Origin: Deltaproteobacteria bacterium
GTDB taxonomy: Bacteria; SAR324; NAC60-12
DNA: 35,582 nucleotides
Reading direction: 5' to 3'
NCBI GenBank assembly: GCA_002726945.1
Contig: PBTB01000126.1
Span: 1 to 35,582, forward strand
Below are positions 7,677 to 19,420 of this stretch, piece by piece; the first letter of the stretch is position 1, and the number at the start of each line of letters is the position of its first letter. The notes below the pieces were generated by a model. It did no database searches and was not told the DNA's origin. It worked only from the letters and a program-made list of their open reading frames with translations. Position numbers and translations under genes: made by a program.

Positions 7677-8341
7677 CTGCCTTACTGAAACACAGTGCGC
7701 TCTCAGGAGTGTACCGGATGAACGGTGCGAAGACCACCACGGTGGCAGGCTGGGAGATCGCCGAATCCTTTGGGGACACCTCCCGCGAACAAAGGCAACT
7801 TGCCGAAGGTGCGGTCCTCGTGGACTGGTCCCACATCGGCAAGCTCGCCCTCTCGCGGGGGGATGCGGCAGCCGTTGCCGAACAGGCGATTCCCGGTGCG
7901 GCCAAGGCGGCTGTGCTTGGCACGACCGGCAATCAGGACCAAGTCGCCCTCCGGCTCACGGAGAACGACTATCAGTTGCTCTGCCAACCCGGACAGGAGC
8001 AAGCCCTTTTGGAGAAGATGGACCAGGCCAAAAGCACAGTCACGGACTCCACCGGGGCACTGGCGTGCTTTGCGCTGGGAGGTCCACGACGGGACGAGGT
8101 GCTGGAGCGTTCAACGGCCGTTGACCTGCGACGCGACAAGGTGGTTCCCGGATCCGTGATCCAACTCACGATCCACACGATTCACTGCACCCTCTACCGC
8201 ACGGAAAACCTTGAAATCATCACCCACTCCCGTACCCTCTCGGAGTCGCTCTACGATGGCCTGATGGATGTCGGTGTGGGGGTTGGACTGATGCCCGCAG
8301 GACTGGGGACGATTCCAGTTTCATTTGAGGAGGAGAAGTGA
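7673..8341 (+). CDS. soxG: Sarcosine oxidase-type gamma subunit
   Basis: This 222-residue protein overlaps the alpha stop by an ATGA and ends overlapping the beta start, so its position in the D-A-G-B string supports SoxG. It resembles a truncated GcvT fold, as gamma subunits do: EGAVLVDWSHIGKLALSRGD near residue 45-63, ALGGPRRDEVLERST around 130, and HTIHCTLYRTENLEIITHSRTLSESLYDGL near 170-200. Gamma packs against alpha in the known heterotetramer and has no catalytic residues of its own. The sequence is divergent, as is normal for this subunit. An alternative description is simply a GcvT-like accessory protein. Confidence 0.78.
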   Translation: MTALLKHSALSGVYRMNGAKTTTVAGWEIAESFGDTSREQRQLAEGAVLVDWSHIGKLALSRGDAAAVAEQAIPGAAKAAVLGTTGNQDQVALRLTENDYQLLCQPGQEQALLEKMDQAKSTVTDSTGALACFALGGPRRDEVLERSTAVDLRRDKVVPGSVIQLTIHTIHCTLYRTENLEIITHSRTLSESLYDGLMDVGVGVGLMPAGLGTIPVSFEEEK

Positions 8342-12804: not shown

Positions 12805-13299
12805 TCAAGCCGCCACGACGCGCTTCTTGCGGGTGGGCTTTTTCTGTTCGGTCTGGGCAACGGGGACTTCCAGCTTATCGCCAAAGAGGAGATGCCGTGT
12901 GTTGTAGCACCCGTTGGTGATCACCATCTGCATGCCCAGCTTCTTGTCGAAGTTGAAAAGCAGCGGCCCCTGAAGGTTGATGGTGACATCTTTCAATTCA
13001 CGGGTCATCGTCACGATCGCCCGGACGCTCACGTCCTCCAGACTTTCGGTGTCGAGCTTCTTGAGGTGCTCGGAGGAGACCTCAATCCGGTAGTCTGAGA
13101 TGGCAAAGTCCGGATCAATGGTGACAAACGCCAGTTCGGGATTGTCGAGCGACTGCATCCATTGAAACGGAGACCCGATCTCGTCCTCCAGCATGGCGAA
13201 ATGTTGATCACTCGTGAACCCCAACATGCCATTGGGCAGGGTCAGGATTTCGCCCTCCTGAATTTCGACTTCTCCAAATCGCGTGGTTTGAATCTTCAT
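12805..13299 (-). CDS. fliW: Flagellar assembly factor FliW
   Basis: This 164-residue protein matches FliW: it begins MKIQTTRFGEVEIQEGEILTLPNGMLGF, then shows FQWMQSLDNPELAFVTIDP and a C-terminal NLQGPLLFNFDKKLGMQMV block. FliW is a cytoplasmic protein that binds flagellin and also CsrA; flagellin build-up frees FliW to inhibit CsrA, which otherwise represses flagellin translation. The basic C-terminal tail KKPTRKKRV extends beyond the core domain. It is the last gene of the flagellar string, 66 nt downstream of csrA, the partner expected from this mechanism. Confidence 0.94.
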   Translation of the reverse strand: MKIQTTRFGEVEIQEGEILTLPNGMLGFTSDQHFAMLEDEIGSPFQWMQSLDNPELAFVTIDPDFAISDYRIEVSSEHLKKLDTESLEDVSVRAIVTMTRELKDVTINLQGPLLFNFDKKLGMQMVITNGCYNTRHLLFGDKLEVPVAQTEQKKPTRKKRVVAA

Positions 13300-13365: not shown

Positions 13366-13602
13366 TCACCCCTCCTTTTTACTAAACAACCCCTTGAGGT
13401 TCTTGAGCGACACCGGTGATTCGGCGGCGGCTCGCTTGTTCTCTTCCTGAATGCGGATGTAGACCTCTTCGCGGTGGATCACATAACTTCGCGGAGCATC
13501 GATGCCAATCCGGACTTGCTTGCCCTTGACTTCAATGACCGTGATTTTGACATCATCCCCGATCGTGATGCTTTCACCCGACTTCCTTGTCAGTATCAGC
13601 AT
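13366..13602 (-). CDS. csrA: Carbon storage regulator CsrA
   Basis: This 78-residue RNA-binding regulator starts [17 protein letters not shown] and contains [20 protein letters not shown]. The family N-terminus fixes the start at 13602 rather than the track start at 13635. CsrA dimers bind GGA motifs in mRNA leaders and block or stabilise translation. The leader just upstream reads GGGAGGAATCCAGTGGACAG before the T and ATG, with two GGA motifs around the ribosome-binding region, so autoregulation is possible. The C-terminal tail (about residues 58-78) is longer than in enterobacterial CsrA, as is common in FliW-regulated versions. Neighbours are flgL upstream and fliW downstream. Confidence 0.95.
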
Positions 13603-13707
13603 ACCTGTCCACTGGATTCCTCCCGGCAGGCACAACCTGTTGTTCCGATGGTGGCGGAATCTTCACCGGAACTGCGCCAATGCAGGGGCAATTACTATCA
13701 ACGCCGA

Positions 13708-15036
13708 TCAGCGCAGGAAATCCGCAAGGGTGGGCTGGATCAGACGGCTACCCGTGTCCAACGCCAGCCGATTGTTGACCTCGGCGCTACTCACCTCCAA
13801 GGAGGTTTTCGCGAGATCCACATCCCGGATTTCCGATAAGCGCTTCTCATGCTCAAAGGTCTGGTCTTCCAGCTTCATCTCAGCCGTCTGGAGTTCGCGC
13901 ACCAGATTTCCGGTGTCGGCCAGACGCTTGAGAATCTGCTTTTCGGCCAGCTCAAGCTCTTCCAAGCGTTTTGCAATAGCGGTGCCATCGTTTTCCAGCA
14001 TGGCGCGCTCCAGTGAAGCGATCAGGGAGAAGGCATCCACCTCTCCCTCGCCCTTGCCTAGCAGCACCTCTTCCGCTGTCACACCCAAGGGGGACGTGAT
14101 CCCCGTGGCGACTATGATCTCTTTCTTCTCCGGAGACCCGATATAGTCCACTTCAGGGTTCTTGCCAAAGATGAACTCCATGCCTTCCGGGAAGACAATC
14201 CCCTGCGCTTCGGATCCTAGCAGTTCGTCCATCTCCTCCACGTCAAATTCGACCACGTGGTTCAGGTCGAGGTCAAAGTACCCCGCCGACTGATTGCCCA
14301 GCTTTCCTTCCTCATCGGAGAAACGCAGGAACACGCGGTCGTCTGGACGTCCCCTCGGGTTGAACATGTGGACTACCGGGCGCAGCACTTCATCCTCGGT
14401 CCAGGTCTTGCCCCCATCGTCGGAAAGCTGGTAGCGGGCCTGTCCGAAAAGTCCTGTTTTGGTGATGCGAATACGGTAGTCGTTGGAGGAGTGTCCATCG
14501 AACTGCGCACGAAACTGCGAGACGTCAAGCAGTTCCCGGATGTCCTGCTGCAAGATGCTGGTGGTTTCGACCTTTGCGGGCTGATGCGGAGAGTTCTTTT
14601 TGAGCGGCGGCGTGAGGCTTTTCACTCCGGAAAACACATAGAGTTTACCCTCACGGGCGTTCCCAGCATCCAGCAGCCCTTTGCGCAACGCACTCAACTC
14701 GCGGGCGGTCATCAGCCGGGATTCATCGTTGGAATCGCTCCCGGACTGCGAGAGGGTCAAGGTCCGCACCTTGCCCAAGATTTCCAGCATCTGACCCAGT
14801 TCCAACTCACTGCGCTCCAAAAAGGAGATGTTTTCGGCAAGATTGCTCCGTAGTTGCTCGTTGCTGGAGAGCTTGGTGACAATGTCCTGCATCTTGACCG
14901 CGCCCATCGGATCATCCGAGGGGCGGTTGAGACGCTGGCCGGATGCCATCTGCATCTGCAACTCCTGCAACTTCGTGGAGTTGCGCTGGATGTTGCCCAT
15001 CACTTGTTCGCGCTTGGCGACTTCGGTCACTCGCAT
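13708..15036 (-). CDS. flgL: Flagellar hook-associated protein 3 (FlgL)
   Basis: This hook-filament junction protein has the flagellin-like N-terminal helix (RVTEVAKREQVMGNIQ then LQMQMASGQRLNRPSDDP) and C-terminal coiled coil (SLEVSSAEVNNRLALDTGSR). The middle region (about 110-330) is a variable D2-type domain. FlgL forms the ring between FlgK and the filament and is exported by the flagellar type III apparatus. I chose ATG 15036; a GTG at 15042 overlaps the flgK stop as GTGA and would add two residues, with translational coupling replacing the missing SD. It lies directly after flgK and before csrA. Confidence 0.93.
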   Translation of the reverse strand: MRVTEVAKREQVMGNIQRNSTKLQELQMQMASGQRLNRPSDDPMGAVKMQDIVTKLSSNEQLRSNLAENISFLERSELELGQMLEILGKVRTLTLSQSGSDSNDESRLMTARELSALRKGLLDAGNAREGKLYVFSGVKSLTPPLKKNSPHQPAKVETTSILQQDIRELLDVSQFRAQFDGHSSNDYRIRITKTGLFGQARYQLSDDGGKTWTEDEVLRPVVHMFNPRGRPDDRVFLRFSDEEGKLGNQSAGYFDLDLNHVVEFDVEEMDELLGSEAQGIVFPEGMEFIFGKNPEVDYIGSPEKKEIIVATGITSPLGVTAEEVLLGKGEGEVDAFSLIASLERAMLENDGTAIAKRLEELELAEKQILKRLADTGNLVRELQTAEMKLEDQTFEHEKRLSEIRDVDLAKTSLEVSSAEVNNRLALDTGSRLIQPTLADFLR

Positions 15037-15038
15037 CG

Positions 15039-16727
15039 TCACATGTTGATGAGGGTCTGCATCATCTCGTCAACCGTACTCACGTAGCGTGCCGATGCTT
15101 CGTAAGCCTTCTGGTGCTGGATCATGTCGGCCAGTTCCTCGTCCATGTTGACCGCACTGATCGAACTGCGGATCTCCCGGAACTGTTGGACCATGTTGTC
15201 CTGCTGCGCCTTCTCCACCTGATTGCGCTGAACCCTGAGGCCAATGTCACCTAAAATACTGTTGTAGTACTCACCAAACGTGACCGTCTCCTCCCGCATT
15301 GTCGGCTGGTTTTGCAACCGGGCAATGGCGAGGGCAACCTGATTGTCTCCGGAAATGAGGTCTCGTCCGGTGGAAATGGCATTGGGATCCTCAAGGATAC
15401 GTGGACTGATCCGGAGGTCGGCGGCTCCCTTGAGCGTTTCAAAGAAACTGTTGAAACCCATCACCTGTGTGATGGCGGTTTGGTCATCTCCGAAAATGAA
15501 GCGTCGCGACTGTCCGGTTTCCAGGAACATGGAGCCGTCTTCTCCAATGGACGCGGCCATCAAATTGGGATCGTTGACCGTCTGGTTGATGCGGTTCACA
15601 ATGTCCTCCAGCGAATCCACCCCGGCCTGCACCTCAATCTCGTAGGTTTCCAGAATGCTGTTGTCGCGGTCCACGAGGTGGAGTTGGAAAACGCCATCCT
15701 GGAGGAACGGCATTGGTTGGGCACGGGCTTCCGGAGTGAGCGCGTAGGCGCTCTTCATCAGGTCAGCCGCAGAGTTGATCCCCGTTCCGGTCGAGTGAGG
15801 CTGGTTGACCTTCGCGGCAACGCCAAAGGCGAGTTCGTCCAGTTGATCCATGTAGCCAACAATGGTCTCGTCGCGCATCTGGATGAGTTCGGTCATCTCC
15901 CCGCCCCGGAAGGTGCGGATGAGGTCGCGACGGTGGTCATGAGTGGCGATGCCGTCAATGCTCACCATGCCCGCCTCCCCACCTCGCAAAGTGGCGTCCA
16001 GCTCAAACACCTGATCCCCCTCCACAAGTGTCCAGTCGCGTCCAATGATCACCGAGGTGCGCCCGTTGGAGTTTTCGATCATGTTGACGTCCACCAGCTT
16101 GGAGAGTTTTTCCACCGCCAGTTCTCGGGCATCGCGGGCATCGTTTGCGTGGTGCCCGCTGATCTCGTAGCTGTAAATCTGCCGGTTCAGTTCCTTGATC
16201 TGCTGGGCGAGGTTATTGATCTGGTTCACCGCACCCTGAATGCGGGCATCGGCTTCCTTGCGCAACGACTGCAACTGTGCGTGCGTGTCCCGAAAGCGCG
16301 TGGCCAGCGTGTCTCCCTGATTCCGGACCCGTGTGCGCACCACGTCCGATTCCGGCTGGTTGGCCAACTGGCTCCATGAGTTCCAAAAGTCGTTCATCGC
16401 CCGGTGCAGCCCACTGTCGCTCATCTCGCTGAAGACAATTTCCAGCTTTGAGAAGAACTCTTCTCGGGTGGTAAAAACCCCGGACCGTGGAGTTTCCTGC
16501 ACAATCTTACGCTGCACAAAACGGTCAAACACCCGAGTCGTCGGCGAAGGCTCAGAGCCGTTGCCGATCCCGTTGGGTTGTGGAAACGCAGTCTGGGTGC
16601 TTTGCTGCTGGCGTGAAAAGCCCTCGGTGTTCTGGTTGGCAATGTTGTGTCCCGCCGTTGTCACCGTGCGCTGACTCGCGCTCATGGCGCGGCTGCCCAG
16701 ATTGAGGGCGCTGTTCAGGCTTGGCAT
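15039..16727 (-). CDS. flgK: Flagellar hook-associated protein 1 (FlgK)
   Basis: This 562-residue protein has the rod/hook-family N-terminus SLNSALNLGSRAMSASQRTV and AGHNIANQNTEGFSRQQ (residues 3-40) and the C-terminal motif SISAVNMDEELADMIQHQKA then YEASARYVSTVDEMMQTLI. FlgK is the first hook-filament junction protein, secreted through the flagellar export channel with FlgN as chaperone. Length is typical. The gene order flgN-flgK-flgL is conserved in many flagellated bacteria. The stop overlaps the potential GTG start of flgL. Confidence 0.96.
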   Translation of the reverse strand: MPSLNSALNLGSRAMSASQRTVTTAGHNIANQNTEGFSRQQQSTQTAFPQPNGIGNGSEPSPTTRVFDRFVQRKIVQETPRSGVFTTREEFFSKLEIVFSEMSDSGLHRAMNDFWNSWSQLANQPESDVVRTRVRNQGDTLATRFRDTHAQLQSLRKEADARIQGAVNQINNLAQQIKELNRQIYSYEISGHHANDARDARELAVEKLSKLVDVNMIENSNGRTSVIIGRDWTLVEGDQVFELDATLRGGEAGMVSIDGIATHDHRRDLIRTFRGGEMTELIQMRDETIVGYMDQLDELAFGVAAKVNQPHSTGTGINSAADLMKSAYALTPEARAQPMPFLQDGVFQLHLVDRDNSILETYEIEVQAGVDSLEDIVNRINQTVNDPNLMAASIGEDGSMFLETGQSRRFIFGDDQTAITQVMGFNSFFETLKGAADLRISPRILEDPNAISTGRDLISGDNQVALAIARLQNQPTMREETVTFGEYYNSILGDIGLRVQRNQVEKAQQDNMVQQFREIRSSISAVNMDEELADMIQHQKAYEASARYVSTVDEMMQTLINM

Positions 16728-16764: not shown

Positions 16765-17259
16765 TCAAACGGCAGTGCGGGCGATCTTGCTCCCGGCATG
16801 TTGCAGCTCTCCCACTCCAGAGTAGGTCTGCTGATGGCCGTGGAGTTCCACCATGAAGCGCAGGGCGGTTTCAACGGAGTGCAAGCGGGCACCGGCTTCG
16901 GCGGAGTTACGGTCGGCCTGTTCGCGGATTTCCGTGATCAGTTGGGTGAGGTGCTCGTGGCAGTCCCGGAGATCGTCGGCCTGTTCAGGCTCAACGCGGG
17001 CGATGATGGTACGCAGACGAAGTTCTTGGGGATTCACGTCCCAGTCGTCAGCAAGTTTTCGGACGACCTGAAGGCGCTCGCGCTCCAGCCGCTCGATTTT
17101 GCGGCTGTGGCGTTGTTTGGAGACTTGAAGCTGCAACAACTCTGAACCCCGCACGGAGCCGAAGCTCTGCGCTTCAGACTCCAGCAAGTCCCGGAGTTGC
17201 TCATGCAGCTTGACTTCTTGGTGGAGGATGGCGGTCAGCCGTTCCAATAATGGGGTCAA
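16765..17259 (-). CDS. flgN: FlgN-family flagellar export chaperone
   Basis: This 164-residue, almost wholly helical protein fits FlgN. It has an N-terminal LLERLTAILHQEVKLHEQL, long heptad-like helices through residue 125, and a C-terminal TYSGVGEL that resembles the family's conserved tail before a disordered end. FlgN binds the C-termini of FlgK and FlgL and delivers them to the export gate. The start is TTG at 17259, with GAAGGG upstream. Family similarity is low, as usual for this chaperone, but position between flgM and flgK makes the call strong. Confidence 0.82.
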   Translation of the reverse strand: MTPLLERLTAILHQEVKLHEQLRDLLESEAQSFGSVRGSELLQLQVSKQRHSRKIERLERERLQVVRKLADDWDVNPQELRLRTIIARVEPEQADDLRDCHEHLTQLITEIREQADRNSAEAGARLHSVETALRFMVELHGHQQTYSGVGELQHAGSKIARTAV

Positions 17260-17320
17260 GGTGTCCCTTCAAAAGCGGGGATCCCGGAATACTGACGCGC
17301 CTCAATGTGGTGGGGTGACT

Positions 17321-17611
17321 TCAGGAAATATCTTCCTGAAGTCCTTCCAGCAACAAGTTGCGTGCCAGTTTCTGTGAATCCACCTCATATTCCCCGCTTT
17401 TGAGCTTCGCCTGCAGTTCCGCGACCTTATCGGCACGGACTTCCGGCTCAGCCTCAAGGCGGAGCTTCATTTTATTTAGGGTGAAGGTTTCGGCCCTCAC
17501 CGAACTCTCCGGCTGCAAGCCGCCCTCGCGGAGCTGCGCCTGCTCGATTTCCTTACGATACCCCCCCTTGACATCCGGAGGCATCGGAGGCTGCTGGCCA
17601 GTGATCTTCAT
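17321..17611 (-). CDS. flgM: Anti-sigma-28 factor FlgM
   Basis: This 96-residue FlgM has an N-terminal disordered half (MKITGQQPPMPPDVKGG onward) and the C-terminal sigma-28-binding region RADKVAELQAKLKSGEYEVD followed by SQKLARNLLLE. FlgM holds sigma-28 (FliA) inactive until the hook is finished, then is exported. I use ATG 17611, preceded by AAGAGGTGG, rather than the 17647 track start. A sigma-28 promoter of near-consensus quality lies about 210 nt upstream, consistent with the usual FlgM feedback loop. The gene starts the flgM-flgN-flgK-flgL-csrA-fliW string. Confidence 0.9.
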   Translation of the reverse strand: MKITGQQPPMPPDVKGGYRKEIEQAQLREGGLQPESSVRAETFTLNKMKLRLEAEPEVRADKVAELQAKLKSGEYEVDSQKLARNLLLEGLQEDIS

Positions 17612-17823
17612 GTCCACCTCTTGCGTGACAATGGTTGCTGACGGCAAGTCCGCAGCATAGCCTTCAGCTTAAGGCCCGGCGTCCCCAGACGCAAGCACTG
17701 AAACAGTGCCCCCATCCGGTATGCCGACTGCGGTTTGCACTCACCGTGCGGACAGAAGGGGGAGTGATCCCCCAGACCAACCCCAAGCCTTTCGAGCCTG
17801 AAAAGTTGGTGCTCTCACTAGCC
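17612..17823 (-). promoter_or_regulatory. Hairpin-rich 5' leader of flgM
   Basis: This untranslated stretch of about 200 nt between the sigma-28 promoter and flgM holds several compact stems: GGGGGA/TCCCCC with a 4-nt loop (17758-17773), GCAC/GTGC (17737-17749), a perfect GCACTG-AAA-CAGTGC (17695-17709), and GCGTC/GACGC (17679-17692). No T-tract follows them. I recognise no known riboswitch family. No convincing ORF spans it. Confidence 0.5.
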
Positions 17824-17850
17824 TTATCGGCACTTGGCCGTAAAACTTGA
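17824..17850 (-). promoter_or_regulatory. Sigma-28 (FliA) promoter upstream of flgM
   Basis: On the minus strand the sequence is TCAAGTTT, an 11-nt spacer, then GCCGATAA. The sigma-28 consensus is TAAAGTTT-N11-GCCGATAA, so 15 of 16 positions match with exact spacing. It begins right after the flgJ stop codon, separating early (rod/ring) from late (filament-junction) genes. Confidence 0.88.
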
Positions 17851-17851
17851 G

Positions 17852-18172
17852 TCATCCTCGCAAGTGGGGCCGGAGTTGCTTGTAGATCATCTCGCCCAGT
17901 CCCAGTGAGCCGGAATCGGCCAACTGTTCGGAGCGGTGCTGATCCAGCATTTCCTGGAACACCCGCTCCCCCTCGGAAACCTTGATGAGGTCCGATTTCA
18001 GCGTAGCGTCCCGCATGGATTTCAACATCTGCTGCACAAAGATCGCCTCAAAGTCGCTGGCGGCCTCCCGAAGCTTCTGTGCATCGTTCAGTTCCGCACC
18101 CTGAAGTTTGTCCAGTCGCTGCTGTTCACGGTTCATCACAAAGGCCATGCCGTTTTGAACGGGAGGAATCAT
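17852..18172 (-). CDS. flgJ: Rod-binding protein, FlgJ N-terminal domain only
   Basis: This 106-residue protein matches the rod-capping half of FlgJ: KLREAASDFEAIFVQQMLKSMRDAT (about 33-57), GERVFQEMLDQHRSEQLADSGSLGLGEMIYKQL (about 68-100). The C-terminal muramidase domain of enterobacterial FlgJ is absent, as in many non-enteric bacteria, so a separate peptidoglycan hydrolase would be needed. It acts in the periplasm as a scaffold for rod assembly. It starts 9 nt after the flgI stop, in the normal flgI-flgJ order. Confidence 0.92.
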   Translation of the reverse strand: MIPPVQNGMAFVMNREQQRLDKLQGAELNDAQKLREAASDFEAIFVQQMLKSMRDATLKSDLIKVSEGERVFQEMLDQHRSEQLADSGSLGLGEMIYKQLRPHLRG

Positions 18173-18181
18173 GTCTTCTGT

Positions 18182-19297
18182 CTAGCGAATCAAAAGTTCT
18201 GCGTGCAGCGCTCCAGCGGCCTTGATGGCTTTGAGAACCTCAATGAGGTCGTCACTGGACGCGCCAATTTTGTTGAAGCCATCAACGATCTCCTTGAGAT
18301 CGGCTCCACCCTTGAAGAGGATCACGTTCGACTGCACGGTGGTTTCCTGCGCAACCGACTCTCCTTGCTCGTTCTGTGTGGGGGGCTGTGGGATCTTGAC
18401 CTCAACCTTGAGTCCGCCCTGAGAAATCGCAATCGGCGAAATCCGGACACTGCCGCCCATGACGACGGTTCCGGAACGCTCATCCAGCACGACCTGCGCA
18501 ACGCTGTCCGGCGTGATCTCCAAATTCTCAATGTAGGACACCAGTTCAACGGTGTTTCCCAGGTAGCTGTCCGGAACCAGCACCTCAACGGTGCCCGCAT
18601 CCTTGGCGCGAGCCGTCCGGATGCCCAAGTTCTGGTTGATGAGCTTTGCCAGCCGGAACGCCGTTGTGAAATCCGGACGGTCGAGGTTCATGAAAAGTCG
18701 GGCGCGGCTGTTGAGGTTGAGGTTGATCTCACGCTCAACGATCGCCCCTCCGGGCACCATCCCCACCGACGACACCATCCGTGAGCCGATGGGCAGGTTC
18801 TCCAGTTCTTCCGGAGGCAGGGCTTCGGCGCGGCTCACGCCTCGTGGAATTCCGGCAATTGGCCCCTGAGCCAGCGCGTACACCTGCCGGTTCGGTCCAC
18901 GCAAAGGTGCCATCAGCAAAATCCCTCCACGCAGCGAGATCGAATCTCCCAGCGTTGCCACCGTGGTATCAAGGCGCTGTCCGGATTTTGCAAAGGGCGG
19001 CAGGGTTGCCGTCAGCCACACCGCCGCGATGCTCCGCCCCTGAATGTCCTGACTGCCAAGGCTGATGCCGATGCGTTCCAGAGCGTTGACGACCGGCTTG
19101 CGGGCGAGCAGGCTTTCCGGAGAGTCCCCCGTGCCGTCCAGACCAACGACAACGCCGAAACCGATCAACTGGTTGTCTCGCGCTCCGCGCAACGCCGCGA
19201 CGTCCTTCACCCGCACAGCCAGCGCAACATCCGCCCACACGATCAGTACGAGGCTGACGACGGCAAGCAATTGACGGCGGATCCTGGATCGTTTCAT
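18182..19297 (-). CDS. flgI: Flagellar P-ring protein FlgI
   Basis: This 371-residue precursor starts MKRSRIRRQLLAVVSLVLI with a Sec signal peptide ending near ADVALA. Mature FlgI features follow: VKDVAALRGARDNQLIGFGVVVGLDGTGDS, LPPFAKSGQRLDTTVATLGDSISLRGG, and the C-terminal GASSDDLIEVLKAIKAAGALHAELLI. It forms the periplasmic P-ring around the rod in the peptidoglycan layer, showing the cell is diderm. I prefer ATG 19297 over the 19345 track start because the signal peptide begins there. flgH (L-ring), usually just upstream, is not here; a vWA gene is in that place. Confidence 0.95.
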   Translation of the reverse strand: MKRSRIRRQLLAVVSLVLIVWADVALAVRVKDVAALRGARDNQLIGFGVVVGLDGTGDSPESLLARKPVVNALERIGISLGSQDIQGRSIAAVWLTATLPPFAKSGQRLDTTVATLGDSISLRGGILLMAPLRGPNRQVYALAQGPIAGIPRGVSRAEALPPEELENLPIGSRMVSSVGMVPGGAIVEREINLNLNSRARLFMNLDRPDFTTAFRLAKLINQNLGIRTARAKDAGTVEVLVPDSYLGNTVELVSYIENLEITPDSVAQVVLDERSGTVVMGGSVRISPIAISQGGLKVEVKIPQPPTQNEQGESVAQETTVQSNVILFKGGADLKEIVDGFNKIGASSDDLIEVLKAIKAAGALHAELLIR

Positions 19298-19420
19298 GGG
19301 TGGCTCAAGCAACGTGGGTACAATGGTCCAAGGTGCCCAAAGCAATACAAGTTCAATGCCAGCAACAAGGGTCGGAAAGGCAGAAGATGTCCTGGAGGCC
19401 TCGGCAGGGCCGGAAATCGC

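Follow-up and report, generated by a model that had tools for sequence, protein, structure and literature searches.

FlgM determines when the late flagellar genes turn on, yet to our knowledge there has been little description of cis-acting control over its synthesis. The stretch of SAR324 DNA analysed here (the window, 35,582 nt in all) carries an flgM gene that is separated from flgJ by a gap, for which the original prediction proposed a near-perfect sigma-28 promoter followed by an unusually structured leader. The question is what such a leader would be for: an RNA regulator of flgM, a target of CsrA, a small RNA in its own right, or simply a spacer. We lean towards a sigma-28 promoter combined with a lineage-specific structured 5'UTR that would act in cis to temper FlgM synthesis.

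The flgM locus and its sigma-28 promoter

Pfam matches define a run of minus-strand genes around the finding, leading from flgI through flgJ, flgM, flgN, flgK, an flgL-like gene and csrA to fliW (Table 1). Both csrA and fliW lie downstream of flgM in this run, in keeping with the earlier statement that places csrA in the flgM operon. Among 52 genomes of class SAR324, flgM was detected in 49 and FliW is present in 48. A 32-nt segment within flgJ (window 17950-17981) is 88% like a stretch at locus L002 (G000:C127:13046-13077; E ~1e-3), a likeness that is probably due to chance.

Table 1. Coordinates of genes, promoter elements and predicted RNA structures in the flgM region of the window
Feature	Position	Strand	Basis or remark
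flgI, P-ring protein	18182..19345	-	PF02119, E 5.6e-104
flgJ, rod-binding type, gene upstream of flgM	17852..18172	-	PF10135, E 3.5e-16
flgJ stop codon	17854-17852	-	TGA
Sigma-28 (FliA) promoter TCAAGTTT-N11-GCCGATAA	17824..17850	-	15/16 to consensus
-35 element TCAAGTTT	17850-17843	-	
-10 element GCCGATAA	17831-17824	-	
Structured flgM leader (5'UTR), ~207 nt	17612..17818	-	fold z; transcription start inferred
Predicted 5' hairpin, two stacked helices, AGCACCAACT/GGTTGGTCT and TCAGGCT/GGCTTGG	17774..17813	-	mean pair probability 0.83
Predicted hairpin GGGGGA-UCAC-UCCCCC	17758..17773	-	mean pair probability 0.85
Predicted large domain	17607..17757	-	mean pair probability 0.94
Predicted closing helix of large domain, UUCUGUCC on GGACAUGAA	17757-17750 on 17615-17607	-	
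Predicted 15-bp hairpin within large domain	17685..17719	-	mean pair probability 0.99
Predicted 6-bp hairpin GGCCUU/AAGGCU within large domain	17659..17676	-	mean pair probability 0.97
flgM start codon	17611-17609	-	ATG, preceded by ribosome site AGAGGTGGAC
flgM, anti-sigma-28 factor, 96 aa	17321..17611	-	PF04316, E 1e-12
flgN	16765..17259	-	PF05130
flgK	15039..16727	-	PF22638, PF06429
flgL-like, flagellin N domain	13708..15042	-	PF00669; flgL name inferred from position
csrA	13366..13635	-	PF02599, E 1.1e-25
fliW	12805..13299	-	PF02623, E 1.9e-34

The promoter motif begins 1 nt past the flgJ stop codon, about 200 nt upstream of flgM, and was scored against the FliA consensus TAAAGTTT-N11-GCCGATAA. 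When the window was searched with the pattern TMAAGTTT-N11-GCCGATAA at up to three mismatches, this site was the single match, with zero mismatches, compared with 0.21 matches in the shuffled window; no second sigma-28 promoter was found by this search. The 2.6-Mb draft genome holds two perfect sites for the same pattern, one of which is the flgM promoter, and four with one change. At three mismatches the genome scan returned 17+17 matches, scarcely more than the 17+13 of the reversed control pattern, and so only the best matches were treated as informative and the weak ones were not counted. Five of the twelve best genome matches, representing four loci, sit directly upstream of flagellin genes (L073, L074, L077/L078, which are one locus, and L080). 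FliA itself is encoded in the same genome, with a score over the cut-off.

A sigma-28-like site with 12-16 matches is also found upstream of flgM in 47 class SAR324 relatives with a readable upstream region. It mostly starts between -4 and +30 nt relative to the flgJ stop, with exceptions at 110 (L036), at 57 (L037) and near -30 (L039 and L044); in two of the relatives the flgJ end was unreadable and gave no promoter position. The distance from promoter to flgM, by comparison, ranges from ~70 to 320 nt. As the site stays near the flgJ stop while its distance to flgM varies, the promoter appears to be anchored to flgJ. The motif score, the class-wide presence of the site before flgM, the same motif before the genome's own flagellin genes and the presence of FliA together make the sigma-28 reading well supported. 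Judged from sequence, it is as good as certain that flgM has its own sigma-28 promoter directly behind flgJ, as predicted, and that this promoter is of the ordinary kind.

Other promoter types were also considered. No sigma-54 site could be assigned, the 26 loose matches being at chance level (22 expected). By eye, a sigma-70 -10 box TATGCT seemed common to genera g1, g4 and g8; it was dropped because some g8 species have CATGCT and because it lies within a covarying stem-loop.

Fold of the window leader

With the transcription start that we infer from the promoter, the leader measures ~207 nt up to the flgM ATG, in agreement with the predicted length of about 200 nt. It has a real excess of structure: its fold energy gives z = -3.58 against 200 dinucleotide shuffles (repeats -3.95 and -3.54), the antisense strand gives z = -1.39, and just 2 of 178 same-length stretches of the window reach z -3.5. 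These two background stretches start at 7701 on the plus strand and at 17301 on the minus strand. The former (7701-7905, z -3.57), in a gene-dense stretch, is the strongest fold outside the flgM region. The latter (17301-17505, z -6.1), at the end of flgM, is a very strong fold with a ~11-bp hairpin over the flgM stop codon, GACTTCAGGAAGATATTTCCTGAAGTC, which is retained only partly in relatives.

The proposal of four compact stems in a row proved roughly right. Among the predicted helices with a probability above 0.8 are a two-part 5' hairpin, the GGGGGA/UCCCCC hairpin, the 15-bp hairpin and the 6-bp hairpin, of which the last two are nested in a domain closed on the flgM start. The closing helix of this domain, predicted here for a single species, would sit over the flgM start codon and the last part of the ribosome site. 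Around the start, overall accessibility is 0.30 compared with 0.37 in shuffles; as this difference is not significant, closure of the start site in the window is put forward as a hypothesis.

The window leader had no match in Rfam, either by gathering score or at E<=1, and a terminator scan of 17300-18400 found no terminator-like site. A short upstream ORF was considered, since an ATG frame in the window runs into the flgM start (ATGA). Such short frames were not taken as coding because the best of them in g8 is broken in two species (L017 and L022).

Leaders of related genera

The searches turned up no other species of the window's genus, and the stems of the window leader are not conserved outside that genus. 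The original prediction had named lack of stem conservation as grounds for rejecting its reading, and across genera this is what we observe. Leader length ranges from ~50 to 290 nt across relatives, and for most genera the sequences cannot be aligned with each other. Covariance models were built from related flgJ-flgM leaders, as had been suggested, and neither R1 (from sister family f2; GGA hairpin plus ribosome site) nor R2 (from genus g8) matches the window, at E<=1 and E<=10 respectively. In a DNA search with the window leader, the best non-self matches were 22-30 nt long, with E about 0.005. Homology of the window leader to the g8 or f2 leader RNAs, found neither by covariance model nor by DNA search, was rejected. 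Closure of the ribosome site shows no trend across the class, with z near or above 0 in most genera.

Long leaders recur elsewhere in the class. Leaders of ~270-290 nt are found in genera g4 and g8, with the promoter remaining at the flgJ stop. The 14 g8 leaders (~280-290 nt) can be aligned along their full length and contain three helices, in which 95.2% of cells are paired and six pairs have changed on both sides. Their covariation score is higher than that of any of 500 shuffles or of any slid control; relatedness alone may be enough to beat shuffle counts, and the slid controls, which preserve relatedness, drop to 33-52% paired. The R2 model, built on helices P5-P6, matches once per genome, always upstream of flgM and in g8 alone, one extra g8 match being partial and at a contig end. 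For the two g4 species, whose leaders are 73% identical, the joint fold has 84 consensus pairs, of which 10 are changed on both sides and none is broken, a score inflated by the use of these same two sequences to derive the structure.

Near their 5' end, the g8 leaders (e.g. L013:1210-1500) carry an invariant AAGGUGUU in which the AGGUG of the ribosome site is repeated. A two-state switch, in which this 5' AAGGUG copy and the ribosome-site AGGUG compete for the CA(U/C)CU that lies between the two, was attractive but unsupported by covariation, which is silent on the matter because both copies are nearly invariant.

The variability of the leaders would suit an explanation in which the promoter is real and the leader is non-regulatory, a rapidly evolving spacer with stems that do no more than guard the transcript from decay. 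In its favour are the differences in length and the lack of alignment between most genera; some relatives lack excess fold, several leaders (L034, L036, L040, L051 and L052) are short or weakly folded, and start-site access in the window does not differ significantly from that in shuffles. It accounts poorly, however, for the covarying helices of g8, for the GGA-loop hairpin that f2 keeps (see below), or for a window fold with z of about -3.5 to -3.9. We regard it as a serious alternative, albeit an unlikely one.

CsrA and the flgM leader

Given that csrA and fliW lie within the flgM gene run, the leader might be a CsrA target, with CsrA, freed or held by FliW, repressing flgM translation through GGA sites. 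CsrA of C. jejuni binds flgM mRNA in gel shift (PMC4894983), and most genera of sister family f2 carry a GGA-loop hairpin ~50 nt before flgM together with a GGA at the ribosome site. The window also has a GGA at its flgM ribosome site (AGGUGGAC before the ATG), a weak sign in what is a common ribosome-site sequence. Against this, the five GGA of the window leader are found in a hairpin loop in 0.00 of the ensemble, compared with an average of 0.13 in shuffles, R1 misses the window, and its matches in the window's own genome are at noise level. The flagellin leader at L073 in the same genome served as positive control: here the GGA loop is present in 1.0 of samples and 0/60 shuffles reach that value. 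A CsrA hairpin in the window leader was rejected on this ensemble test. Since the window leader exposes no GGA hairpin, though the L073 flagellin leader carries a perfect one, the CsrA reading is unsupported for the window; with the ribosome-site GGA as its one remaining element, we judge it improbable.

The L073 leader is itself a probable CsrA site, being a sigma-28 flagellin leader of ~180 nt (z -3.5) with GGAG near its start. By analogy with B. subtilis and C. jejuni, CsrA/FliW most likely acts on flagellin in the genome of the window.

The CsrA idea fits the flgM leaders of family f2 rather than the window leader. In 7 of 10 f2 genera, 0.94 or more of the ensemble forms a GGA-loop hairpin 48-52 nt before flgM. 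The hairpin sequence of G037 (L040) is the same but forms in only 0.215 of the ensemble; in G039 the GGA hairpin is at 68 nt before flgM, and in G034 it is built on an unrelated stem sequence. Stem covariation in f2 is 0.393, which 0/500 shuffles reach, with G034 out of register in the alignment. The f2 leaders have further GGA at the ribosome site, and clear R1 matches are limited to the flgM leaders of this family. A GGA-loop hairpin with a changing stem was noted at L032, L039, L040, L042, L043, L048, L049 and L050. On these sequence features the f2 flgM leaders are of CsrA-type design and are likely to be under CsrA control.

A possible separate small RNA

Small RNAs dependent on sigma-28 are known in E. 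coli (PMC10578931), but that the region upstream of flgM makes a separate small RNA from its sigma-28 promoter is highly improbable in the window, where the leader has neither a terminator-like site nor a second promoter. A layout that could make one exists in three genomes of one f3 genus (L038, L041 and L047), where the flgJ-flgM gap holds two sigma-28-like promoters in tandem with a T run (U-tract) before the second, as if a small RNA of ~150 nt ended there. Since a simple terminator scan of L038 and L047 did not score their U-tracts as terminators, a separate f3 small RNA is a suggestion only. Tandem sigma-28-like promoters in this gap are also seen at L046, L051 and L052.

Proposed role of the leader

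The idea of an RNA regulator remains plausible, as the window leader folds better than chance and leaders of sister genera have covarying helices. By analogy with those leaders, and not by homology, the window leader is more probably regulatory in cis than otherwise. In the reading that we favour, a sigma-28 promoter with a cis-acting structured 5'UTR, the promoter would yield a late-class transcript of flgM, flgN, flgK, flgL, csrA and fliW. This transcript would be controlled by the very sigma factor that FlgM inhibits, giving a negative feedback loop. It would open with ~200 nt of stable stem-loops acting in cis, which may mainly set how much FlgM is made per transcript, through access to the start site, where the predicted closing helix would lie, and through transcript stability. 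RNA reading through from flgJ would bear the same leader, since the promoter begins so close behind the stop codon of that gene.

A broader reading can be offered tentatively, and we do not think it the likely one: the gap between the flgJ-anchored promoter and flgM could be a hot spot in SAR324 where every genus has evolved a regulatory RNA of its own, so that FlgM, the anti-sigma-28 brake, would always be RNA-controlled while the means change. This would take in the multi-helix leader of g8, the CsrA-type hairpin of f2, the possible small RNA of one f3 genus and the stem array of the window. If these leaders do act on FlgM, the flagellar checkpoint of an abundant, uncultured group of the ocean would include an RNA layer, one that is kept in place and rebuilt in each lineage.

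Comparison with known systems

The papers found in the open-licence literature deal with trans-acting control of flgM and with the binding of CsrA to flgM mRNA in C. jejuni, and leaders of the present kind are not described in them. Small RNAs that control flgM include OmrA/OmrB (PMC7549644) and CJnc230 (PMC11187230). They share with our proposal the post-transcriptional control of the anti-sigma factor, but are trans-acting RNAs that meet an ordinary flgM start, whereas the window has a long cis leader with no known partner. The sigma-28-dependent small RNAs of E. coli, UhpU, MotR, FliX and FlgO (PMC10578931), are likewise RNA elements produced under the flagellar sigma factor. These are separate, Hfq-bound and in several cases derived from 3'UTRs, while the element in the window is continuous with flgM, without a terminator between.

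In C. jejuni, an RpoN promoter drives flgM together with flgI-flgJ, and a FliA promoter drives flgM alone (PMC11187230). The gene order flgI-flgJ-flgM and a separate FliA-type flgM promoter are common to both systems. They differ in that no sigma-54 site could be assigned here, and in that many SAR324 leaders are long and structured, with no small RNA known to act on them.

The control of flagellin leaders by CsrA/FliW, as for hag in B. subtilis (PMC6529632) and flaA in C. jejuni (PMC4894983), offers a close parallel for the CsrA question. The window flgM leader departs from that pattern in having no exposed GGA hairpin. As in those systems, csrA and fliW are found among flagellar genes, and in the window's genome the L073 flagellin leader combines a GGA-loop hairpin with a GGAG near its start. 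The flgM leaders of f2 carry the same kind of hairpin, which, if these leaders act on FlgM, would connect the anti-sigma factor with the flagellin sensor CsrA/FliW.
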